In this document: positions 1 to 10,120 of the stretch, piece by piece
Layout: every line of letters begins with the position of its first letter
Position numbering within the stretch: the first letter of the stretch is position 1
Source of the DNA: an uncultured Desulfovibrio sp.
Lineage (GTDB): Bacteria; Desulfobacterota; Desulfovibrionia; Desulfovibrionales; Desulfovibrionaceae
DNA length: 10,120 bases
Assembly (NCBI GenBank): GCA_900555975.1
Contig: USNI01000023.1
Location: 1 to 10,120 of the forward strand
Reading direction: 5' to 3'
Made by a program: the position numbers and the translations under genes
Notes under the pieces: model-generated
What the model saw: only the letters and a program-made list of their open reading frames with translations
What the model was told of the DNA's origin: nothing
Databases searched by the model: none

Positions 1-471
1 TTTTTCATTATCCTGCCTTTTGCGGCATACCTTCTCCTGTCGTTTATGCAACAGGTAGTTAAAATTAAAGAACCCCTCCACCGGTTCCGCCATCGTTTCG
101 TTGCCGGCATGTCGGGCCTGAACGCAGCTGCTCCGGTTAAAATTTCAGAAAGAGCTGAAGCTCCACGGCTCTCCCTCCGAAAACAACCCGACAAAAATCT
201 GGTCCGCTGTCATGAAAATGCCGTGAGAGCTCCTGTTCCATGCCCTTTGCCGGTACCGTGTCCGGGAATACTTTTCGTCGTCAGACAAATGCTGCGCCCC
301 CAGGAATATCTTCCGTTCTCCGGGATACATGCACGGAAATTCCATGCGTCGCCGCACGCCCTCAGGCTGCAGGTTTTCCATTGTTTTGGAACTCTTTGAC
401 TTTTTTATTGAACTTCATCAAACCGTCATCACGGCGTCATGCTCACGTCAACTGGGGCGCCTATGTTTTCT

Positions 472-490
472 CCGTTCTTCAGAAGAACGG
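472..490. promoter_or_regulatory. Perfect 9-bp inverted repeat, candidate operator
   Basis: CCGTTCTTC and GAAGAACGG are exact reverse complements around a single central A. A hairpin with a one-base loop is not feasible, so a dimeric DNA-binding protein site is more likely than an RNA structure. It lies 76 bases before the binding-protein start and just downstream of the weak -10-like TATGTT at 462-467, where a repressor would be expected to act. No regulator gene is in the window, so the protein that would bind is unknown. Confidence 0.45.
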
Positions 491-503
491 CGTGCGGATT
501 CTG

Positions 504-517
504 CCGGAAATTTCCGG
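504..517. promoter_or_regulatory. Perfect 14-bp palindrome CCGGAAATTTCCGG
   Basis: The sequence is identical to its own reverse complement across all 14 bases. It follows the 472-490 dyad, with centres 29.5 bases apart (about 2.8 helical turns), and ends 49 bases before the first start codon. It could be a second regulator site or a different regulator's site. Its half-sites are unlike those of the upstream dyad, so the two are not copies of one operator. Confidence 0.4.
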
Positions 518-556
518 TCCGCTCTCCGTTCCGAATACGTTTTTTCAACGTTCTAT

Positions 557-561
557 GGAGG
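557..561 (+). promoter_or_regulatory. Shine-Dalgarno of the binding-protein gene
   Basis: GGAGG lies five bases before the ATG at 567. It fixes the start there rather than at in-frame Met codons further upstream, and it is followed at once by a signal peptide. The same frame is open back to 240, but that upstream part is non-coding in character. Confidence 0.85.
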
Positions 562-566
562 AAACT

Positions 567-2126
567 ATGATTCCCGCTTCCCGCTGGCTGAGATTCGCCG
601 TAGCGGCCGTGCTGTGCACCTTTGCCCCTATTTCGGCGACAGCCGCCGACTCCCGCCCGGATCTCGTGGTTGCCGTGGCAGAAATTCCTGAAGGACTCGA
701 ACCTTCCAAGGAACTGTCCAACATGGGGACCCGCATCACCTACAACATCTTTGATACGCTCATCCGCCGCGACTTTCTGGCGGACGGCTCCGGTACGGCA
801 GCAAAGCTGGTGCCGGGACTGGCCGAGAGCTGGAAGCGCATCGACAACAACGGCATCGAACTGCATCTTCGCAAGGGCGTGAAGTTCCACAACGGAGACG
901 AACTCACTTCGGCCGACGTGGTCTTCACCTTCGAACGTATGCTGAAACCCGACTATCCGGCTCCGGAAGGCAAGGCCTATTTCTCCATTTTCGACCGCAT
1001 CGAAGCGGTTGATCCCTACACCGTACGCATCTATACGAAGTACAATGACACACTGCTCGAGCACCGGCTGTCCTCCTGGGCCAGCTGGATCGTCAACAAG
1101 CGCGCCTATGAAGAACTGGGATTCGACGAATTCGGACGTCACCCCGTCGGTACCGGGCCCTACAAACTGAGAAGCCTGCGCTCCGGTGAAAGCATCATTC
1201 TCGACGCCAACGACGACTACTACGGCGGTAAACCGACGGCCCGCAGCGTCACCTTCCGCATGGTGCCGGAAGTGGCCGCCCGCATCAGCGGTCTGGTCAG
1301 CGGCGAATTCGACATCATCGCCAACCTTCCTCCGGATCAGCTTTCCACGCTGGAATCCTACCCGGATATCGACGTGCGCAGCGTCGTGCTTTCCAACACG
1401 CACATGCTTGTGTTCAACGTCAACGCCGGCCCCCTCAAGGACAAGAGAATCCGTCAGGCCCTGTCCCTTGCCGTAGACCGCAAGGCTCTGAACGACGCGC
1501 TCTGGGGCGGCAAGGCAGTAGTGCCCAACGGTCATCAGTTCCCCGAATTCGGCGACATGTACGATCCTTCCCGTCCCGGCCAGGTCTTTGATCCTGAAAA
1601 GGCTAAAGAGCTCGTAAAGGAAGCCGGTTACAAAGGCGAACCCATCACACTGCACACCCAGGCCAACTACTATGTGAATGCGCTCGCCGCCGCCCAGATC
1701 ATGCAGGAAATGTGGAAGGCCGTAGGCCTGAACGTTCAGCTGCAGGTCATTGAAAACTGGAAGGCCGTCAAGAACGAAGACCTCATGATCCGCAACTGGT
1801 CGAACTCCAACCGCTACCCTGATCCGCTCGGCTCTCTGGCCGTGCTCTGGGGCGAAAACGGTGCGGCTCAGGCCTCGTGGAAGACCTGGACCGGCCCTGC
1901 CGCCGAAAAGTTCAACGCGCTCATCGCAAGCCTTGAGCAGACCTCCGATCCTTCCACCCGCAAGAAAATCTTCGGCCAGATGCTCGACCTGTGGGAAGAT
2001 GAAACCCCCGGCATGACCCTGTACCAGCCTCTTGAAAGCTACGGCGTGAAGAAGTCCGTGCACTGGCAGCCCTACAGCTTCTACTACATGGATCTGCGCC
2101 CCTACAACCTCACCTTCGACAAGTAA
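567..2126 (+). CDS. ABC transporter substrate-binding protein, family 5 (peptide/nickel/opine type)
   Basis: This is the periplasmic receptor that captures the substrate and hands it to the membrane permeases. It is 519 residues, the usual size for SBP_bac_5 (DppA/OppA) proteins. Residues 1-26 form a Sec signal peptide (Arg6 and Arg9, a hydrophobic core, then SATA) with likely cleavage after Ala26. The Cys at 17 lacks a proper lipobox, so a soluble periplasmic protein is expected. Family hallmarks are visible: the N-terminal NIFDTLIRRD, the LAESWKRIDNNGIELHLRKG and VKFHNGDELTSADVVFTFER segments, GTGPYKL, and KDKRIRQALSLAVDRKAL. It is first in the operon, with a strong GGAGG. The ligand cannot be read from sequence; the phosphodiesterase genes downstream argue for an organic phosphodiester instead of a peptide. 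The family call is secure; the ligand is inference. Confidence 0.95.
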   Translation: MIPASRWLRFAVAAVLCTFAPISATAADSRPDLVVAVAEIPEGLEPSKELSNMGTRITYNIFDTLIRRDFLADGSGTAAKLVPGLAESWKRIDNNGIELHLRKGVKFHNGDELTSADVVFTFERMLKPDYPAPEGKAYFSIFDRIEAVDPYTVRIYTKYNDTLLEHRLSSWASWIVNKRAYEELGFDEFGRHPVGTGPYKLRSLRSGESIILDANDDYYGGKPTARSVTFRMVPEVAARISGLVSGEFDIIANLPPDQLSTLESYPDIDVRSVVLSNTHMLVFNVNAGPLKDKRIRQALSLAVDRKALNDALWGGKAVVPNGHQFPEFGDMYDPSRPGQVFDPEKAKELVKEAGYKGEPITLHTQANYYVNALAAAQIMQEMWKAVGLNVQLQVIENWKAVKNEDLMIRNWSNSNRYPDPLGSLAVLWGENGAAQASWKTWTGPAAEKFNALIASLEQTSDPSTRKKIFGQMLDLWEDETPGMTLYQPLESYGVKKSVHWQPYSFYYMDLRPYNLTFDK

Positions 2127-2137
2127 GTTCTTCCCTC

Positions 2138-2161
2138 GGCGCGCTCCGAAAGGGGCGCGCC
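2138..2161 (+). terminator. Intercistronic hairpin with GAAA tetraloop
   Basis: Ten base pairs (2138-2147 with 2152-2161, one of them G-U) close a GAAA (GNRA) tetraloop at 2148-2151. Only three T follow, so it is a poor full terminator. It lies 12 bases after the binding-protein stop and 17 before the first ATPase start. In binding-protein-dependent operons such hairpins commonly protect the 3' end of the receptor message and let only part of transcription through, giving more receptor than transporter. That role is inferred here. Confidence 0.7.
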
Positions 2162-2177
2162 GTTTCGAGTACATTCC

Positions 2178-3191
2178 ATGCTGCTTTCCATACGAAATCT
2201 CGGAGTCCGCTTCTGGAGTCCCCGCGGTATCGTCCGTGCGGTAAGCGACGTCAATCTCGACGTGCAGCCGGGCGAAATCGTCGGCATCGCCGGAGAAAGC
2301 GGATCCGGAAAAAGCGTCACCTGCATGGCCGTCATGGGGCTTCTGCCGACACGCTTCACCCACGTCACCGGCTCCGTCACTCTTGAAGGTCGCCCGCTTC
2401 TCGATCTTCCCGAACAGGAACGACGTCGTCTGCGGGGAAGAACCCTCGCCATGATCTTTCAGGATCCTTCAAGCTGTCTGGATCCCATACGCCGCATCGG
2501 CAGTCAGATCATGGAGGCTCTGAAGCTGGCCGAACCCGACCTGCCCCGCGCCGAACTCCGGGACAGGGCCAGAGATCTGCTGCGCCGCGTGGGCATTGCG
2601 GACTCCGCCAGACGAATGGATGAATACCCGCATCAACTTTCCGGCGGCATGAACCAGCGCGTCATGATCGCCATGACGCTGGCCTGCAGTCCCCGCCTTC
2701 TCTTTGCCGACGAGCCGACCACCGCTCTCGACGTGACCACGCAGGCCCAGATACTCGACCTGATCAGAAGCGTCGCCGCGGAGCACAACATGGCCGTGGT
2801 GCTCGTTACTCACGATCTCGGCGTGATGGCCCAGACCGCCGACAGGGTGGCCGTGATGTACGCCGGTCGCGTAGTGGAAAACGCCCCCGTCGGAGAACTT
2901 TTCAATCATCCCTCGCATCCGTACACCAGAGCACTGCTCAAGGCCTGCCCCCGTACCGACATCACCGTGCGCAGACTGACCTCCATTCCCGGCACGGTGC
3001 CGCCCCTCACCGAAAAAATCACGGGATGCGCCTTTGCCCCGCGCTGTGCGGAAGCCATGCCCGTATGCCCGCAGATCCGTCCCCGGATGCTGAACCTGAG
3101 CCGGGACGACGCGTCTTTTGCCGCCGCCCCCGGTACGGAACACTTCTGCGCCTGCCACAGAAACGAGATCGGGAGTAGGATGCCGTCATGA
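2178..3191 (+). CDS. Oligopeptide/dipeptide-type ABC transporter ATPase (DppD/OppD family)
   Basis: One of the two cytoplasmic ATPases that power the importer. The 337 residues carry Walker A GESGSGKS (39-46), the Q-loop at Gln95 in IFQDP, signature LSGGMNQR (154-161), Walker B LLFADEP (174-180) and the switch His212 in THD. After HPYTRALL comes the oligopeptide-transporter C-terminal domain with Cys284, Cys290, Cys297 and Cys324/Cys326; the spacing matches the conserved Cys cluster of DppD/OppD proteins, some of which are reported to hold an iron-sulfur cluster. The upstream Shine-Dalgarno is weak (GAG at 2167-2169). Its stop overlaps the next ATPase start (ATGA). The signature reads GGMNQR where its partner has GGQRQR, as is usual for D-type subunits. 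Confidence 0.95.
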
Positions 3192-4255
3192 TCACCGAAC
3201 AGGAACATACCAATGCGCTGCTGCGCGCCGACAACCTTGTCCGCACCTTTCAGGCGGGCCGCGAAGGACTGTTCGGACTGTTCGGCCCGCGTCGTGAAGT
3301 CAGGGCCGTGGACGGCGTATCTTTTTCCATCATGCCCGGCGAAGCGCTGGGCCTCGTGGGCGAAAGCGGGTCCGGCAAGTCCACCGTGGGCAACATGATC
3401 AGCGCCCAGATTCTTCCCACGGAAGGGGAAGTGTATTTTGAAGGACGACGCCTGCATGACGAAGCCCTTCCCCGTGTCCGCAGACGGGAAGAAATGCGCC
3501 ACCTCAGACGCAATCTTCAGGTCATCTTTCAGGATCCCGCAGGCACACTCAATCCTCGTCTTGCCATCGGAGAACAGATAGCCGAGCCTCTGCGCATTCA
3601 CGGAGAAAAGGATGCCCGCCTGCTGAAGCAGCGCGTGGCGGAAGCTCTCCTGCAGGTCGGTTTGAACGAAGACATGGCCTCCCGCTATCCGCACGAACTT
3701 TCCGGCGGACAGCGGCAGCGCGTCGTGGTGGCGCGGGCGCTCATCACCCGTCCGAAGCTCATCGTCTGCGATGAGCCCACCTCGGCGCTCGACGTGTCCA
3801 TTCAGGCTCAGGTCGTCAATCTGCTCGGCGACCTGAAGGCGAAAACCGGCATCTCCTATCTTTTCATTTCTCACAACCTCGGCGTCGTAAGAACGGTATG
3901 CGACAGAGTGGCCGTCATGTATCTCGGCAGAATCGTGGAAGAAGCCCCCGTGGATGAACTCTTCTCCCATCCCGAGCATCCGTATACGCGGGCGCTTCTG
4001 GAAGCCAATCCCATTCCGGTTCCCGGACTCAGAAGTCAGACGCCTCCTCTGCGCGGAGAGCCGCCGAGTCCTCTTGACGTCCAGCCCGGCTGCCGTTTTC
4101 TGGAACGCTGCCCCCGTGCTCATGAACGCTGCCGTCGCCTCGCGCCGGAGTTGAAGCGGATACGCCGCTCCCGTACCTTTTCGGAACCCGTCCATCTCGT
4201 CGCCTGCCATTATCCGGAAACGGACCGCTCCGTCTTCCAGGAGTCTCTGTCATGA
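3188..4255 (+). CDS. Oligopeptide/dipeptide-type ABC transporter ATPase (DppF/OppF family)
   Basis: The second ATPase, expected to form the nucleotide-binding heterodimer with the 2178-3191 product. Its 355 residues show Walker [10 protein letters not shown] (58-66), the Q-loop at Gln115 in FQDP, signature LSGGQRQ (171-177), Walker B LIVCDEP (191-197) and the switch His229 in SHN. An insert of about ten residues before the first core strand (REGLFGLFGPRREVRA) is typical of the F-type subunit. The C-terminal domain has Cys302, Cys308, Cys315 and Cys340. The ATG overlaps the previous stop as ATGA, with AGGA at 3177-3180 as Shine-Dalgarno. Its own TGA overlaps the next start in the same way, so translation of three genes is coupled. 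Confidence 0.95.
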   Translation: MITEQEHTNALLRADNLVRTFQAGREGLFGLFGPRREVRAVDGVSFSIMPGEALGLVGESGSGKSTVGNMISAQILPTEGEVYFEGRRLHDEALPRVRRREEMRHLRRNLQVIFQDPAGTLNPRLAIGEQIAEPLRIHGEKDARLLKQRVAEALLQVGLNEDMASRYPHELSGGQRQRVVVARALITRPKLIVCDEPTSALDVSIQAQVVNLLGDLKAKTGISYLFISHNLGVVRTVCDRVAVMYLGRIVEEAPVDELFSHPEHPYTRALLEANPIPVPGLRSQTPPLRGEPPSPLDVQPGCRFLERCPRAHERCRRLAPELKRIRRSRTFSEPVHLVACHYPETDRSVFQESLS

Positions 4256-4965
4256 ATCGTTCCCTTCTTGCCATAGCCCACAGAGGCTACTCCTCCCGTT
4301 TTCCCGAAAACACTCCCGCCGCCTTTGCCGCGGCATGCGATCTCGGCGTGTTCGCCGTGGAAACCGACGTCAGGCTCACGACCGACAACGTCCCCGTCTG
4401 CATGCACGATCCCGACCTTCTTCGTCTGGTCCGCAGACCGGAACGCATCGCGGAAACGACGTTCGAAGAAGCCAGAAGGCTTCTGCATGAGGCAGGCCGC
4501 GAACTCTGCCTCCTGGAAGATGCCTTGAAGCTGATGAAAAACATCAGAGGGCGCCTTCTTCTCGACGTCAAGGTTCCATCCTCGCTCCCGCTCATCCATG
4601 AGCTGCTGGAACGCCTTGCCATGCCACTTGACGCCGTCGTGCTGGGGCTTCGCTCCATCGATCAGGTGCATGTGTGGCGCTCCATGGATACCAGGCGGCC
4701 CGTTCTCGGATTTCTCGAAGACGTGCGCGACATTCCGGCCTTTCTTACCGAAGGCGGCACCGTCATCCGCTTCTGGGAGGAAGATCTCATGCGCCAGCCG
4801 AATCTTGTGCATCTTGCCGGGGAAACGCCGTTCTGGGTCATGGCCGGAGCAAGAACATCCAGCTGCGGCGAAACGACGCCCGAACGCATCGAGGCCGTCC
4901 GCGCTCTCGGCGCAGAAGCACTGCTGCTCAACGATCCTGCGCTGCTGCTCTCCCGCACCGAATAA
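4252..4965 (+). CDS. Glycerophosphodiester phosphodiesterase (GDPD family, UgpQ-like)
   Basis: GDPD enzymes hydrolyse glycerophosphodiesters to sn-glycerol 3-phosphate and an alcohol, using a divalent metal in a TIM barrel. The 237 residues are the usual size of the short cytoplasmic form (UgpQ type). Visible catalytic features are HRG (His10-Arg11), PENT with Glu20, ETDVRLT with Glu37 and Asp39, MHD with His52, and LLLDVK with Lys107. There is no signal peptide, so it should act on imported substrate. The ATG overlaps the ATPase stop (ATGA) and has AGGAG at 4239-4243. Co-translation with the transporter suggests it processes what is imported. A related enzyme, AccF of Agrobacterium, cleaves a sugar phosphodiester (agrocinopine), so glycerol may not be part of the true substrate. 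The family is firm; the exact substrate is open. Confidence 0.92.
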   Translation: MNRSLLAIAHRGYSSRFPENTPAAFAAACDLGVFAVETDVRLTTDNVPVCMHDPDLLRLVRRPERIAETTFEEARRLLHEAGRELCLLEDALKLMKNIRGRLLLDVKVPSSLPLIHELLERLAMPLDAVVLGLRSIDQVHVWRSMDTRRPVLGFLEDVRDIPAFLTEGGTVIRFWEEDLMRQPNLVHLAGETPFWVMAGARTSSCGETTPERIEAVRALGAEALLLNDPALLLSRTE

Positions 4966-4976
4966 GGAACTATCGC

Positions 4977-6335
4977 ATGAGCCATCACGTTCTCATTACC
5001 GTTCTGGACGCCTTCTGCAGCGACATGCTCAGCGAGAGCGACACCCCGCATCTGTGGCTTTTTTCCCGTGCATGGACGCGCGTTCCCCACGCACGCTCCG
5101 TCTTCCCCAGTGAAACGCGCGTATGCGCCTCCTCTCTGGTAAGCGGCTGCTGGCCCGAACGGCACGGGCTGACGGCAAATTATCAGTTCATGCCGGAAGG
5201 CGGCCCTCTGCTCAACAGCGGACTGCCCGAAGATCTGCGCCTGTGGAGAGAATATCTTGCCGCCGCCTCTCCCGACAGCGAGCCTGTGCCGGATTTCGGA
5301 ACCACGCTGGCCCGCGCCGGAAAAACGCTGCTCAGCGTAGCGGCCGCTTCGGACGGCTGCTGTACGCTGCTCGACCGCGACGCCACACGGCACGGCCATC
5401 TCAGACTGGCCGTTCGCACGCCGGAGGCCTGCTCCTCGCCGGAGCATCACAGGAAAATGGTACGACGTTTCGGTCCCGTACCGGAAGTGAGGGCCGACGA
5501 CGGAACCTATACTTCCGAGCTTCTGGACTACACCGTTACCGTGCTGCTCGGCCACATCCGTTCCGATGCGCCCGATGCCGCCCTGTGCTGGCTGCCGGAA
5601 CCGGACATGGCGGGCCACCTCTTCGGAACCCGCAGCGCCCAGCACCGCAAAGCACTCTCCGACATCGACCATCAGTGCGGACGCATTCTTGAATGGTGGG
5701 AAAACGAAGGCCGCAGGCAAGGCTGGCAGATATTCTTCATGGCGGACCACGGCATGGCCGATGCTGCAGCAAGACACGACATTCCCGCCGCGCTCCGCGA
5801 AGCCGGTTTCGACGTTTCTCTTTCCCATGAAGGGCAGGCCGTCAGCGCCACCCGGAACAAGACGACCTTCCGTCTTCTGAATGCGGCAAGCGGTCACGCC
5901 CGTTTCGACGGCGCTCCGGACAATGAGGCCATCGAAGCCCTTATCGAAGCGCTGCGACCCCTCTGTGCGGAACTTTTTCTGAGCGACAAGCTTCTGGATG
6001 ACTGTCCGGTGCCCGATGTCCGCCCTTTGAGCCTTATGCACTGCGCTCATCCTCTCGGGCCGCAGATACGCTTCACTCTGGCCGGAACTGCGTCCGGACC
6101 GGGCGTACCGGCAGGGACCACGAAAACCGGCTTTCACGGCGGCCTGCTCTTCCGTGAAATGCATCCCCTTCTTCTGGCGGGCGGAACAGGCATACGGCCG
6201 GCATATGAAGCGTCGTGTCGCTCCGCCCTGCCCGACATCGTGCCCACTGCGCTTGCGCTGCTCGGAGTTCCCGTGCCCGAGAGGATGCAGGGACGCGTAC
6301 TGAACGAAATTCTTGCGGAGCCAAAGGAGATCTGA
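4977..6335 (+). CDS. Alkaline-phosphatase-superfamily phosphodiesterase (nucleotide pyrophosphatase/phosphodiesterase type)
   Basis: A two-metal phosphoesterase of 452 residues resembling the NPP/type I phosphodiesterase branch. The metal and nucleophile pattern is complete: Asp11 in VLDAF; the FPSETR segment, with Thr47 as probable nucleophile, followed by a SGCWPERHGL motif; PDMAGHLFG with Asp210 and His214; MADHGM with Asp257 and His258; and His387 in GFHGG near the C-terminus. There is no signal peptide, unlike many family members, so it is probably cytoplasmic. It starts 11 bases after the GDPD stop with AAGGAA at 4964-4969. In context it would be a second cleavage step or an alternative phosphodiesterase for the imported compound. 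Phosphonoacetate hydrolase and phosphoglycerate mutase relatives share the fold, so the exact reaction is uncertain. Confidence 0.88.
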   Translation: MSHHVLITVLDAFCSDMLSESDTPHLWLFSRAWTRVPHARSVFPSETRVCASSLVSGCWPERHGLTANYQFMPEGGPLLNSGLPEDLRLWREYLAAASPDSEPVPDFGTTLARAGKTLLSVAAASDGCCTLLDRDATRHGHLRLAVRTPEACSSPEHHRKMVRRFGPVPEVRADDGTYTSELLDYTVTVLLGHIRSDAPDAALCWLPEPDMAGHLFGTRSAQHRKALSDIDHQCGRILEWWENEGRRQGWQIFFMADHGMADAAARHDIPAALREAGFDVSLSHEGQAVSATRNKTTFRLLNAASGHARFDGAPDNEAIEALIEALRPLCAELFLSDKLLDDCPVPDVRPLSLMHCAHPLGPQIRFTLAGTASGPGVPAGTTKTGFHGGLLFREMHPLLLAGGTGIRPAYEASCRSALPDIVPTALALLGVPVPERMQGRVLNEILAEPKEI

Positions 6336-6337
6336 CC

Positions 6338-7114
6338 ATGCTGCGCTACATTCTGCGCAAGGCGCTGCGCGCCCTCATGACCATGTTTCTGGTCGTGACC
6401 TTCACCTTTCTCATTCTCCGCATTTCCGGCGATCCCACGGAAATCATGTTCCCGGATGACGTCCCTCAGGAAGTCAAGGACGCCTATCGCATCGCCTGGG
6501 GACTGGACAAGCCGCTGCATGAGCAGTTCATCAAATATCTCGTGAGCATAGGACACGGCGATCTCGGCTATTCCTTCCGAGATTCCCGCCCCGCCCTCGA
6601 CGTGGTTACGGAACGCATTCCGGCCACGCTCCGGCTCGGCCTGAGTGCCTTCGCCCTTTCCGTGTGCATGGGCGTCCCCCTCGGACTGTGCGCCGCCTTC
6701 CGTCGCAACACGTTTCTCGACCGGCTGGCCACGTCGGTGAGCGTCATGGGCTACAGCATGCCGAACTTCTTCCTGGGCATTCTGCTGGGCATTCTCTGCG
6801 ACGCCCACACGCTGCTCGATCCCGCGGTGCTCAAACTGCTCGTGCTGGGCATCCTCGCCCTGCTGATTTCGGGCATCGGCGGCATCTTGGGCGGCTATGC
6901 CGTGTATTTCTTCAAGCGGGGCAATTTCAACCCCGTCATCGGTATCGCCGCCGTCAGCTGCGTGCCCACGACGGCCAAGGTCGCCCAGAAGATCGTCTCG
7001 CACGACAATCCGTCTTCGTTCGTGCTGGCCGACGCGCTTGGAGCCAACGTCACGGGGGTCATCACCTCGGCCGTCATCGCCGCGATCTACGTGACCGTGA
7101 TTCCGATGCTGTAA
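6338..7114 (+). CDS. Composite ORF: DppB-type ABC permease N-terminus joined to a sodium-pump decarboxylase beta-subunit C-terminus (probable chimera)
   Basis: This 258-residue frame starts at an ATG with AAGGAGA at 6324-6330, two bases after the phosphodiesterase stop. Residues 1 to about 149 are a DppB/OppB-type permease: a first membrane helix at 9-29, a periplasmic segment with WGLDKPLHEQFIKYL and GDLGYSFRDSRP, IPATLRLGL, a second helix at about 99-119, and YSMPNFFLGILL. Such permeases are normally 300-340 residues and contain an EAA loop that contacts the ATPases; it is absent here. From about residue 150 the sequence is instead the end of an OadB/GcdB/MmdB-family protein. Neither half could work as it stands. 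I treat the join as artificial until reads across 6773-6800 show otherwise; the permease start itself is certainly real. Confidence 0.85.
   Translation: MLRYILRKALRALMTMFLVVTFTFLILRISGDPTEIMFPDDVPQEVKDAYRIAWGLDKPLHEQFIKYLVSIGHGDLGYSFRDSRPALDVVTERIPATLRLGLSAFALSVCMGVPLGLCAAFRRNTFLDRLATSVSVMGYSMPNFFLGILLGILCDAHTLLDPAVLKLLVLGILALLISGIGGILGGYAVYFFKRGNFNPVIGIAAVSCVPTTAKVAQKIVSHDNPSSFVLADALGANVTGVITSAVIAAIYVTVIPML
6773..6795. repeat. 11-base direct repeat at the probable chimera junction
   Basis: CTGGGCATTCT occurs at 6773-6783 and again at 6785-6795, separated by one base, and encodes LGIL-LGIL. It falls exactly where the protein changes from ABC permease to decarboxylase beta subunit. Short identity like this is what template switching during library amplification, or a wrong local join in assembly, tends to leave. 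It could also be chance, because both proteins are rich in Leu, Gly and Ile at such positions. Confidence 0.75.
6785..7114 (+). pseudogene. C-terminal fragment of a sodium ion-translocating decarboxylase beta subunit (OadB/GcdB/MmdB family)
   Basis: About 105 residues of a roughly 400-residue membrane protein that couples decarboxylation of a biotin-bound carboxyl group to sodium export (oxaloacetate, methylmalonyl-CoA or glutaconyl-CoA decarboxylases). Recognisable pieces are DAHTLLDPAVLKLLVLG; a Gly-rich helix (SGIGGILGGYAVYFF); GNFNPVIGIAAVSCVPTTAKVAQK, the family's conserved pore segment; and ALGANVTGVITSAVIAAIY at the end. The N-terminal three quarters are missing, replaced by the ABC permease. 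It ends with TAA at 7112-7114 and is followed by a terminator, as expected for the last gene of a decarboxylase operon. Which decarboxylase it belongs to cannot be told from this fragment. Confidence 0.85.
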
Positions 7115-7155
7115 ACGCTGCGGGCGGCTTCCGCCCCGCTTTCCCGTTCTGCGGA

Positions 7156-7203
7156 TCCGCCCCTGCCGCACCGATTTGCGGCAGGGGCGGACCGTATTTT
7201 TTT
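7156..7203 (+). terminator. Rho-independent terminator after the decarboxylase fragment
   Basis: A perfect 15-bp stem (7156-7170 with 7177-7191, GC-rich) with a six-base loop is followed, after CCGTA, by seven T at 7197-7203. It ends + strand transcription 42 bases beyond the TAA at 7114, in the 100-base gap between convergent genes. On the - strand the stem is not followed by a T-run, so it would stop the opposite TolC-side transcript less well. Confidence 0.9.
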
Positions 7204-7214
7204 CGGGGCGGGAT

Positions 7215-8558
7215 TCAGTCGAGAAGGCCCGCGGCCTTGCGGTACTCCAGCCAGCGGAGGTAGGAGCCGATCCGCGCTTCGACCTGCGTGCGGCTCGCCT
7301 GCTGCCACACGGCCTGTGCCTCGAGATAGTCCGAAAGCGTCTCCAGGCCGGCCTCGTACTGGCGGCGGCTCATGCGGAGGTTCTCCTCGGCGGCCTCCAT
7401 CGAGGTGTCGGCCAAGCGCCGTTCGAGCAGCGCCTCGTCGAGGTTGTTGGCCGCCTGCGTCATTTCGAGCGCCAGCAGCTCGCCGCCGCTCTCCAGCTCG
7501 GCCTGCGCCTGCTCGTATTTGGCCCGGGCCGAGCGGAACCTGTTCGAGCGGGTTCCGAAATGGAAGATCGGCACGGAAAGCCGTATGCCGGCGGAGAATC
7601 CCCAGTTGCCCAGCAGGTTCTGCCCGTTCACCTCGAGTCCGTGCAGGTAGCCGTAGTTGCCTGCCAGCCCGATCTGCGGGAGCCGTTCGCTGCGGGCCAG
7701 CCGCATCTGTTCGCGGGCCAGGTCGCTCTTCCCGGCGAGCATCCGGTATTCGGGGCGCGCCGTCATGTCGCCGGTCCCGGGTGCCGCGGCCGCCGGAGGC
7801 TCGGGCAGGTCGCCCGCCACGTCGAGAGGCGTGCCGAGCGGACAGCCGATGTAATGGCAGAGGTTCATCGTCGCCAGCCTCAGGGCGTTTTCGGCCCGGC
7901 GGAGGTCCAGTTCGCTCTCGTTGAACTTCACGCGCACCTTCAGCACGTCGTTTTGCGGCTGGATGCCGTGTCTGCGGGCACTCTCCACCGAGCGCAGCAG
8001 TTCGGCGAGCAGTCTGCGGTAGCTTTCCGCCACCCGGCGGATCTCCCGCGCGCGCACCACGCCGGCGTAGGCCCGCGACGTCTCGACGATCACTTCGGCT
8101 TCCGTCAGGCGGCGGTTTTCGGCGGCCAGCGAGCTGCCGATCCGTGCCATGCGGTAGCCCGTGCGGACCTTGCCGCCCATGTAGAGCGGCTGTTCGAGGG
8201 TGACGCCCCCGCCGTAGATCCATCCCAGGCTGTAATCGAGGCCGAGTCCCGGGAAATAGGCCGTGCTGCCCGTGGGTACGCCGTTTTTGTCCAATACGGG
8301 CAGCGAGCCGCCCGCGATGTCGAGCCGTCCGTCCGAGGTGGAGTAAAGCCCGCCGCCCGCGGCCGAGAGCGAGGGAAAGAAGTTTCCCTTCATGCTCCGC
8401 AGGTCGAACTGCGCCGCCTGCGCCTGCCGTTCGGCCGCCGCGAGAGCCTTGTTGTTCTCCTGCGCCAGACGCAGGCAGGCGTCGAGGGTGAGCGGTTCGG
8501 TCTGGGCGTATGCGCCGCCGCAGAGCAGTGCCGCGAGGATGATGGGAAGTCGTTTCAT
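7215..8558 (-). CDS. TolC-family outer membrane efflux protein
   Basis: The outer-membrane channel of a tripartite efflux pump; trimers form a beta-barrel plus periplasmic coiled-coil tunnel. It is 447 residues with a signal peptide (MKRLPIILAALLCGGAYA, cleaved before Gln19 or close to it); the Cys has Leu before it, so a lipoprotein is unlikely. Both OEP repeats are seen: LTLDACLRLAQENNKAL with a long helical region through SRAYAGVV and VESARRHGIQPQNDVLKV, then KYEQAQAEL through YEAGLETLSDYLEAQAVWQQA, which is the classic TolC-type helix ending. Two strand-rich segments lie between (GGGVTLEQPLYMGGKV; GFSAGIRLSVPIFHFG). The ATG (8558-8556) overlaps the RND gene's TGA as ATGA. No Shine-Dalgarno precedes it, so it probably depends on coupling, as is common in Bacteroidota. 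The frame stays open far upstream inside the RND gene, but that is a shadow. Confidence 0.95.
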   Translation of the reverse strand: MKRLPIILAALLCGGAYAQTEPLTLDACLRLAQENNKALAAAERQAQAAQFDLRSMKGNFFPSLSAAGGGLYSTSDGRLDIAGGSLPVLDKNGVPTGSTAYFPGLGLDYSLGWIYGGGVTLEQPLYMGGKVRTGYRMARIGSSLAAENRRLTEAEVIVETSRAYAGVVRAREIRRVAESYRRLLAELLRSVESARRHGIQPQNDVLKVRVKFNESELDLRRAENALRLATMNLCHYIGCPLGTPLDVAGDLPEPPAAAAPGTGDMTARPEYRMLAGKSDLAREQMRLARSERLPQIGLAGNYGYLHGLEVNGQNLLGNWGFSAGIRLSVPIFHFGTRSNRFRSARAKYEQAQAELESGGELLALEMTQAANNLDEALLERRLADTSMEAAEENLRMSRRQYEAGLETLSDYLEAQAVWQQASRTQVEARIGSYLRWLEYRKAAGLLD

Positions 8559-10120
8559 CGGTCGATCCGGATTTTGAAGAACATGGCGTAGAGCACGGGT
8601 ACGAAGAAGAGCGTGGCGAAGGTCGAGAAGAGCAGTCCGCCCATGATCGTCGCGGCCATCGAGCCGAACATGGCGTCGCCCAGCAGGGGGATCATGCCCA
8701 GAATGGTCGTCAGCGAGGCCATCATTACGGGGCGCAGGCGGCTTTCGGAGCTGCTGACGAGTGCCTTCGCGGGATCGGTCCCGGCGGCGATCTGTTCGCC
8801 GATCTCGTCCATCAGCACGATGCAGTTCTTCATCATCATGCCCACGAGCCCCAATGCGCCGACGATGGCGCAGAAGGTGAAGGTCTTGCCCGTGAGGAGC
8901 ATGGCCCCCACGATGCCGATGGCCAGCAGCGGAATGCCGCAGAGAATGATGAGCGGCTTGCGGTAGTCGCCGAAGAGCAGGATCAGCACCGTAATCATCA
9001 GTACGATGCCCAGCGGCACGTTCCGGAACAGGTAGCGCATCGTTTCGTCGCTGGCTCCCTTCTCGCCCTGCCACGCGAGGGCGTAACCCGTCGGCAGGGG
9101 GATGCGGTCGATCTTTTCGGCGACGGCGCGGCGTGCGGCTTCGGTCTCGGTTCCCGGGACGGGCGAGCACATCACCTTCTGGGCGCGCTGGCCGTTGTAG
9201 CGCGGCACGACGGGGTCCTCCCAGGCCACCTCCACGCCGCGGCTCACCTGCCGGAGCGGTACGGTGCCGAGTACCGATTCGACCAGTTCGCTGCGGTCGA
9301 TCGTCCCCGTTTTCAGCCTGACGAGGGTCTGCTCGTCGAGCAGCCCGTCGAGCGAGGGGAGCATCGGGAAGACGGGGACGTTCTCCAGATTGTCCACCGG
9401 AGCGCCCCCGGCATCGGTGCATTTGAGGTAGATCGTATTCTTGTGCGTTCCGTCGTAGAAAGCCCCGACGGGAATGCCGCCCGCCGCCGAGAGGATCGAG
9501 GTGGCCACCTCCTGGCGGCTCAGCCCCGCGCGCCGTGCCGCCGACTGGTCGTAGTCGATTTCGAGCACGGGCAGCGCCGGTTCCCAGTCCGAGGTGACGA
9601 GGCACACTTCGGGCGAGGTCTCCATGACCCGGCGGGCGCTGTCGGCCAGCGCGTGCAGCACGGCCGGGTCGGGCCCCGTGAAGAGCGCCTCGATCGGGTA
9701 TTTCTTGTACATGATGTTGTAGCGTTTGAGCTTCACGTAGGCGTCCGGATAGCGGTCCGTCAGGATGCGCTGTATCTCGTCCATGTTCTCCTCCAGCGCC
9801 TTCGGAGAGGCGAAGTCGATAATCAGCTCGCCGTACGACAGCGACGGCGTGGCGATGCTCCGCACGAGGTTGTAACGGGCCGGCGTGCCGCCGATCGAGG
9901 CGGTCACCGCGCCGATCTCGGGGCGGGTTTTTAGCCACGTCTCGATTTCGTGCAGGTCTTCGGCCACGCGGGTCGAGTTCGTTCCTTCGGGGAGTTTGTA
10001 CTCCATGTAGAGCTGGTCGTAAACCATGTCGGGGAAGAAGCCCTGCCGCATGAAGCCGTAGCCCCAGGCGCTCAGGGCGACCAGCCCGAGCGCGAGCAGG
10101 ATCGACGAAATGCGGTGGCG
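8555..10120 (-). CDS. RND efflux transporter permease subunit, C-terminal half (partial)
   Basis: A proton-driven inner-membrane efflux pump (AcrB/HAE-type RND). The 521 visible residues are the second half of a protein usually 1000-1050 long; the N-terminus runs off the right edge, with no start codon in view (the Met at 10051 is internal). The window begins in transmembrane helix 7 (ISSILLALGLVALSAWGYGF), then GFFPD and the second porter/docking domain (YKLPEGTNSTRVAEDL to IPLPTGYALAWQGE), then helices 8-12 from VPLGIVLMITVLILLF to FFVPVLYAMFF. The helix-10 Lys of the proton relay is present in GMMMKNCIVLMDEI. At the position of AcrB Thr978 there is Ala in RPVMMASLTTILG, by my eye alignment. 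It lacks obvious CusA metal features in this half. A membrane-fusion protein gene probably lies further right, outside the window. The substrate is unknown. Confidence 0.95.
   Translation of the reverse strand, partial: RHRISSILLALGLVALSAWGYGFMRQGFFPDMVYDQLYMEYKLPEGTNSTRVAEDLHEIETWLKTRPEIGAVTASIGGTPARYNLVRSIATPSLSYGELIIDFASPKALEENMDEIQRILTDRYPDAYVKLKRYNIMYKKYPIEALFTGPDPAVLHALADSARRVMETSPEVCLVTSDWEPALPVLEIDYDQSAARRAGLSRQEVATSILSAAGGIPVGAFYDGTHKNTIYLKCTDAGGAPVDNLENVPVFPMLPSLDGLLDEQTLVRLKTGTIDRSELVESVLGTVPLRQVSRGVEVAWEDPVVPRYNGQRAQKVMCSPVPGTETEAARRAVAEKIDRIPLPTGYALAWQGEKGASDETMRYLFRNVPLGIVLMITVLILLFGDYRKPLIILCGIPLLAIGIVGAMLLTGKTFTFCAIVGALGLVGMMMKNCIVLMDEIGEQIAAGTDPAKALVSSSESRLRPVMMASLTTILGMIPLLGDAMFGSMAATIMGGLLFSTFATLFFVPVLYAMFFKIRIDR

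Follow-up and report, generated by a model that had tools for sequence, protein, structure and literature searches.

The open reading frame at 6338-7114 (+ strand) of the window, the 10,120-nucleotide stretch of a contig analysed here, contains the first half of a DppB-type permease followed by the C-terminal end of a sodium-pump decarboxylase beta subunit, and sequence comparison indicates that it is almost certainly an artefact, produced when an assembler misjoined Mailhella and Alistipes-like DNA through a short repeat. The frame encodes 258 amino acids and is nested in a longer GTG-start frame (6215-7114) of the ORF list. An earlier note on this DNA had described the same union of permease half and beta subunit end, and its coordinates and domain reading agree with the ORF list, Pfam and NCBIfam. 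Pfam placed the N-terminal permease domain PF19300 (BPD_transp_1_N) at residues 1-100 (E 1.3e-12, 48.4 bits, cut-off 23.8), followed by a fragment of BPD_transp_1 (PF00528) that covers profile positions 1-44 of 184 and, at 24.2 bits, falls below the cut-off of 26.4. OAD_beta (PF03977) was found at residues 116-254, corresponding to positions 210-348 of the 349 in the profile (E 3.2e-36), that is, the last 40% of the domain. NCBIfam assigned the N-terminal part to Opp/Dpp/Nik-B permeases and the C-terminal part to TIGR03136 (141-256) and TIGR01109 (121-250). The partial profiles bear out the view that both domains are cut mid-fold, and the EAA loop of the permease would fall past the seam.

The left arm of the window (1-6786) is Mailhella DNA, as indicated by its match to two contigs of a Mailhella metagenome-assembled genome (MAG; G001), with 97% identity over 62-3187 and 99% over 3145-6786; bases 1-61 had no match in this MAG. 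It carries an ABC importer operon in which Pfam identified a substrate-binding protein (ORF ending at 2126, likely start ATG 567, scanned from 570), two ATPases (2178-3191 and 3188-4255), a glycerophosphodiester phosphodiesterase (GDPD) family gene (4252-4965) and a type I phosphodiesterase family gene (4977-6335), ahead of the 5′ part of the permease gene (6338-6786, + strand; residues 1-149 and two bases of codon 150). The substrate-binding protein had a match in one of the five genomes searched, that of Mailhella. The two phosphodiesterase genes (4252-6335) lie between the ATPases and the permease, and from this gene order the substrate of the importer may be some compound with a phosphodiester bond instead of dipeptides.

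When one genome per species was scanned with the ORF at 6338-7114, six loci were returned; the locus that corresponds to the permease part lies on a contig of a Mailhella MAG (L001). Bases 6338-6786 are identical to L001 3261-3709 at 449 of 449 positions and diverge from 6787 onwards, with just 104 of the 328 bases of 6787-7114 identical. From the same ATG, L001 encodes an intact DppB-type permease of 309 amino acids. Among proteins, P0002 is identical to the ORF over residues 1-150, save residue 9. The real Mailhella gene of this DppB/OppB/NikB type (L001, P0002) thus continues through the permease domain, whereas the window ORF does not. The next ORF after the permease in L001 (4211-5167, 318 amino acids) is, by inspection, a putative second permease. 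In the window, as the earlier note had observed, DppC is missing downstream: 3′ of the ORF lie TolC-type and RND efflux genes on the opposite strand, and no second permease. The end of L001 is repetitive, its bases 1-80 corresponding to window 3173-3252 and those from 68 on to the window from 3145 on; this is either a short duplication in tandem or an artefact of the contig end.

The other five loci of the scan, three from Alistipes and one each from Bacteroidales and Blastochloris, match the beta subunit part, so that the best matches of the two halves differ, Mailhella for one and Alistipes/Bacteroidales for the other, as the earlier note had proposed for a chimera. Residues 144-258 of the ORF are identical to the last 115 of the 405 residues of a beta subunit, P0022 (28%, for which the description "C-terminal quarter" is fair), and the corresponding DNA (6767-7114, + strand) is the 3′ end of an Alistipes-like OadB/MmdB-type gene, identified from P0022, PF03977 and three Alistipes loci. 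At the DNA level, 6787-7114 shares 295 of its 328 bases with Alistipes sp. CHKCI003 (L002), 281 with Alistipes montrealensis (L003) and 296 with an Alistipes sp. MAG (L006), an identity of 86-90%, and each of the three carries the whole 405-residue gene. Against these intact proteins (PF03977; P0022, L002), the window ORF is without the first 290 residues. A search of 13 genomes with P0022 gave a match in 11, with a best match of 80-82% in four and of 33-37% in seven, and none in the Mailhella MAG or in G178. Which full-length gene was the right parent is not certain, since P0022 comes from a contig of 1.5 kb and its tail recurs in another protein, P0024, behind a different N-terminal sequence. 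Each arm therefore matches a different organism, at 97-99% on the left and, on the right, at about 90% to Alistipes loci in the beta subunit and less beyond it, and both parents exist intact and without the join, the permease in L001 and the beta subunit in L002, L003, L006 and P0022.

The position of the seam follows from the parent proteins, P0002 reaching through residue 150 and P0022 beginning at residue 144; they overlap only in FFLGILL, which puts the seam at residues 144-150 (bases 6767-6787) and agrees with the earlier estimate that the beta subunit starts at about residue 150. Both genes encode FFLGILL, and both therefore carry a shared word of 20-21 bases (6766-6786, + strand). Before the 20-base word (6767-6786), L006 has C, whereas L002 and L003 have G; as this base differs among the Alistipes loci, the word is 20 bases long, or 21 if the donor has C like L006. 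Both genes read the word in the same frame, so the ORF stays open across the seam. In the Mailhella MAG, the permease gene has the only copy of the 20-mer. This 20-mer was exactly matched in none of the nine genomes of the Alistipes genus set that were searched, the donor strain not being among those nine, and L002 differs from it by one mismatch. For two genomes of about 2.8 Mb with equal base use, about 15 shared 20-mers and about four shared 21-mers would be expected by chance, and 21 is a usual smallest k of short-read metagenome assemblers.

The misjoin would have arisen with the Mailhella sequence broken inside the dppB-type gene, the Alistipes-like sequence broken inside the sodium-pumping decarboxylase beta subunit gene, and a metagenome assembler joining both breaks at the common 20-21 base word; this accounts for the observations with no extra assumption. 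That software made the join, and not a cell or library preparation, is something we infer, as is the window being a metagenome contig. The same sequence evidence would be expected of a chimeric molecule made by laboratory template switching at the shared word and then faithfully assembled, and an overlap of 20-21 bases may also permit such switching, but a rare chimeric molecule would presumably hardly outvote the true continuations during assembly, and this origin is considered very unlikely. The assembler misjoin has its counterpart in the chimeric contigs of metagenome assembly, which likewise combine two organisms at a short shared word with intact parents elsewhere. According to a published study (PMC7299287), such contigs can result when assembly graphs are connected by sequencing errors or by k-mers in common, mostly among related species, whereas here the sources are distant and have one short word in common.

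Relatives of the fusion were sought in 5.8 billion proteins, of which 8000 candidates were scored, giving 3765 matches with the best 120 listed. None of these best 120 of 3765 matches contained both halves in one protein; the best permease-type match among them covered 55% of the ORF and the best beta-subunit match 45%. A second copy of the fusion, if present as a predicted protein, should rank first in this search. The window's own ORF is likewise absent from the best 120, so the protein database misses at least one such record. Two matches with higher coverage were rejected as fusion relatives: the domains and sequence of P0115 (95% coverage, 42% identity) are those of an ordinary permease, and OAD_beta is the sole domain of P0116 (79% coverage, 50% identity). 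A search of plasmid proteins gave 3437 records, none of which covers 80% of the ORF in one place, and the best 20 of these match only up to residue 153. Rfam, at gathering scores, gave no match in the window.

Also among the best 120 of 3765 matches, four proteins (P0039, P0048, P0116 and P0024) have the C-terminal part of the beta subunit attached to other sequence. The partner, judging from the accessions, is presumably an ATP synthase subunit C-type domain in P0039 (1.3-kb contig) and a ClC-type channel in P0048 (1.7-kb contig), where the join is at nearly the same place as in the window ORF. P0116 and P0024 read as the beta subunit C-terminal part joined to parts of another beta subunit. 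All four have the appearance of additional assembly chimeras affecting this gene. The P0068 and P0073 clusters, which have PF01783 (which we take to be ribosomal protein L32) ahead of the beta subunit C-terminal part, may be chimeras or real fusions.

A real cellular fusion, in which an Alistipes-like segment entered Mailhella (or the reverse) by recombination at the short repeat, would account for the reading frame being kept in the ORF at 6338-7114, and both Mailhella and Alistipes are known from animal guts. The permease gene, however, is intact in the close Mailhella MAG, the fusion is absent from the best 120 protein matches, and the domains are truncated as described above. We also rejected a mobile element at the seam, since the overlap is a plain shared word and Pfam detected no mobile-element domain in the eight proteins scanned, a result that also weighs against a cellular fusion. 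Such an event is held to be extremely improbable. The same low standing, hardly credible, is given to its specific form, in which inter-phylum recombination at the 20-21 base repeat in a Mailhella strain would have fused a truncated peptide permease in frame to a beta subunit end. The earlier proposal of a chimeric contig is instead favoured by the differing best-match organisms, the identical or near-identical intact parents and the absence of a fusion among the best 120 of 3765 matches.

Beyond the beta subunit, the right arm continues with a strong hairpin followed by a T run (7156-7203, boundaries by eye), a probable terminator between convergent genes; the fold of 7115-7214 has a free energy of -67.6 kcal/mol (z -6.27), and none of 200 shuffles was as good. 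It is followed on the - strand by a TolC-type outer membrane efflux protein (7215-8558, PF02321) and the C-terminal half of an RND efflux permease (8555-10120, PF00873 profile positions 550-1020 of 1021), cut by the window end. The best full-length relative of the TolC-type protein in the protein database is 73% identical, and one partial match, P0139, reaches 98% identity across 62% of the query length. Within the Alistipes genus set, to which the genome of L002 belongs, the TolC-type protein shows 58-63% identity in seven loci and the RND protein 72-80% in eight. Some part of 6787-10120 matches DNA in 73 of the 180 genomes of this set, the longest match being 73% over 7226-10120, and the longest matches within the efflux genes are 68-81% identical.

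None of the genomes searched combined the beta subunit with the efflux genes at high identity, as a single donor would. Four genomes (G002, G003, G004 and G016) have a close beta subunit relative and no close relative of the efflux genes: the outer membrane protein reaches at most 31% in the first three, short low-scoring matches aside, and in G016 the sole DNA match, to 444 bases of the RND gene, is 67% identical. Conversely, G017, G170 and G173-G178 have close efflux relatives and no beta subunit relative above 37%. The right-arm donor may be an unsampled species, or there may be a second join between 7114 and 7215. Composition, which the earlier note had proposed to compare, differs between the arms in GC (0.603 left, 0.663 right), but the correlation between their tetranucleotide profiles is 0.83, and the right arm resembles the Blastochloris locus (0.905) as closely as the Alistipes sp. 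MAG locus L006 (0.909). Composition neither proves two sources nor names the second one.

The apparent fusion of a peptide transporter and a sodium pump is thus most likely not a new protein. Its significance is only as a caution: taken at face value, the record would mislead annotation, with a "permease" that is none; taxonomy, by assigning an Alistipes-like efflux pump to Mailhella or vice versa; and any claim of horizontal transfer. An in-frame seam can mimic a fusion protein when the common word encodes the same peptide in both parents.
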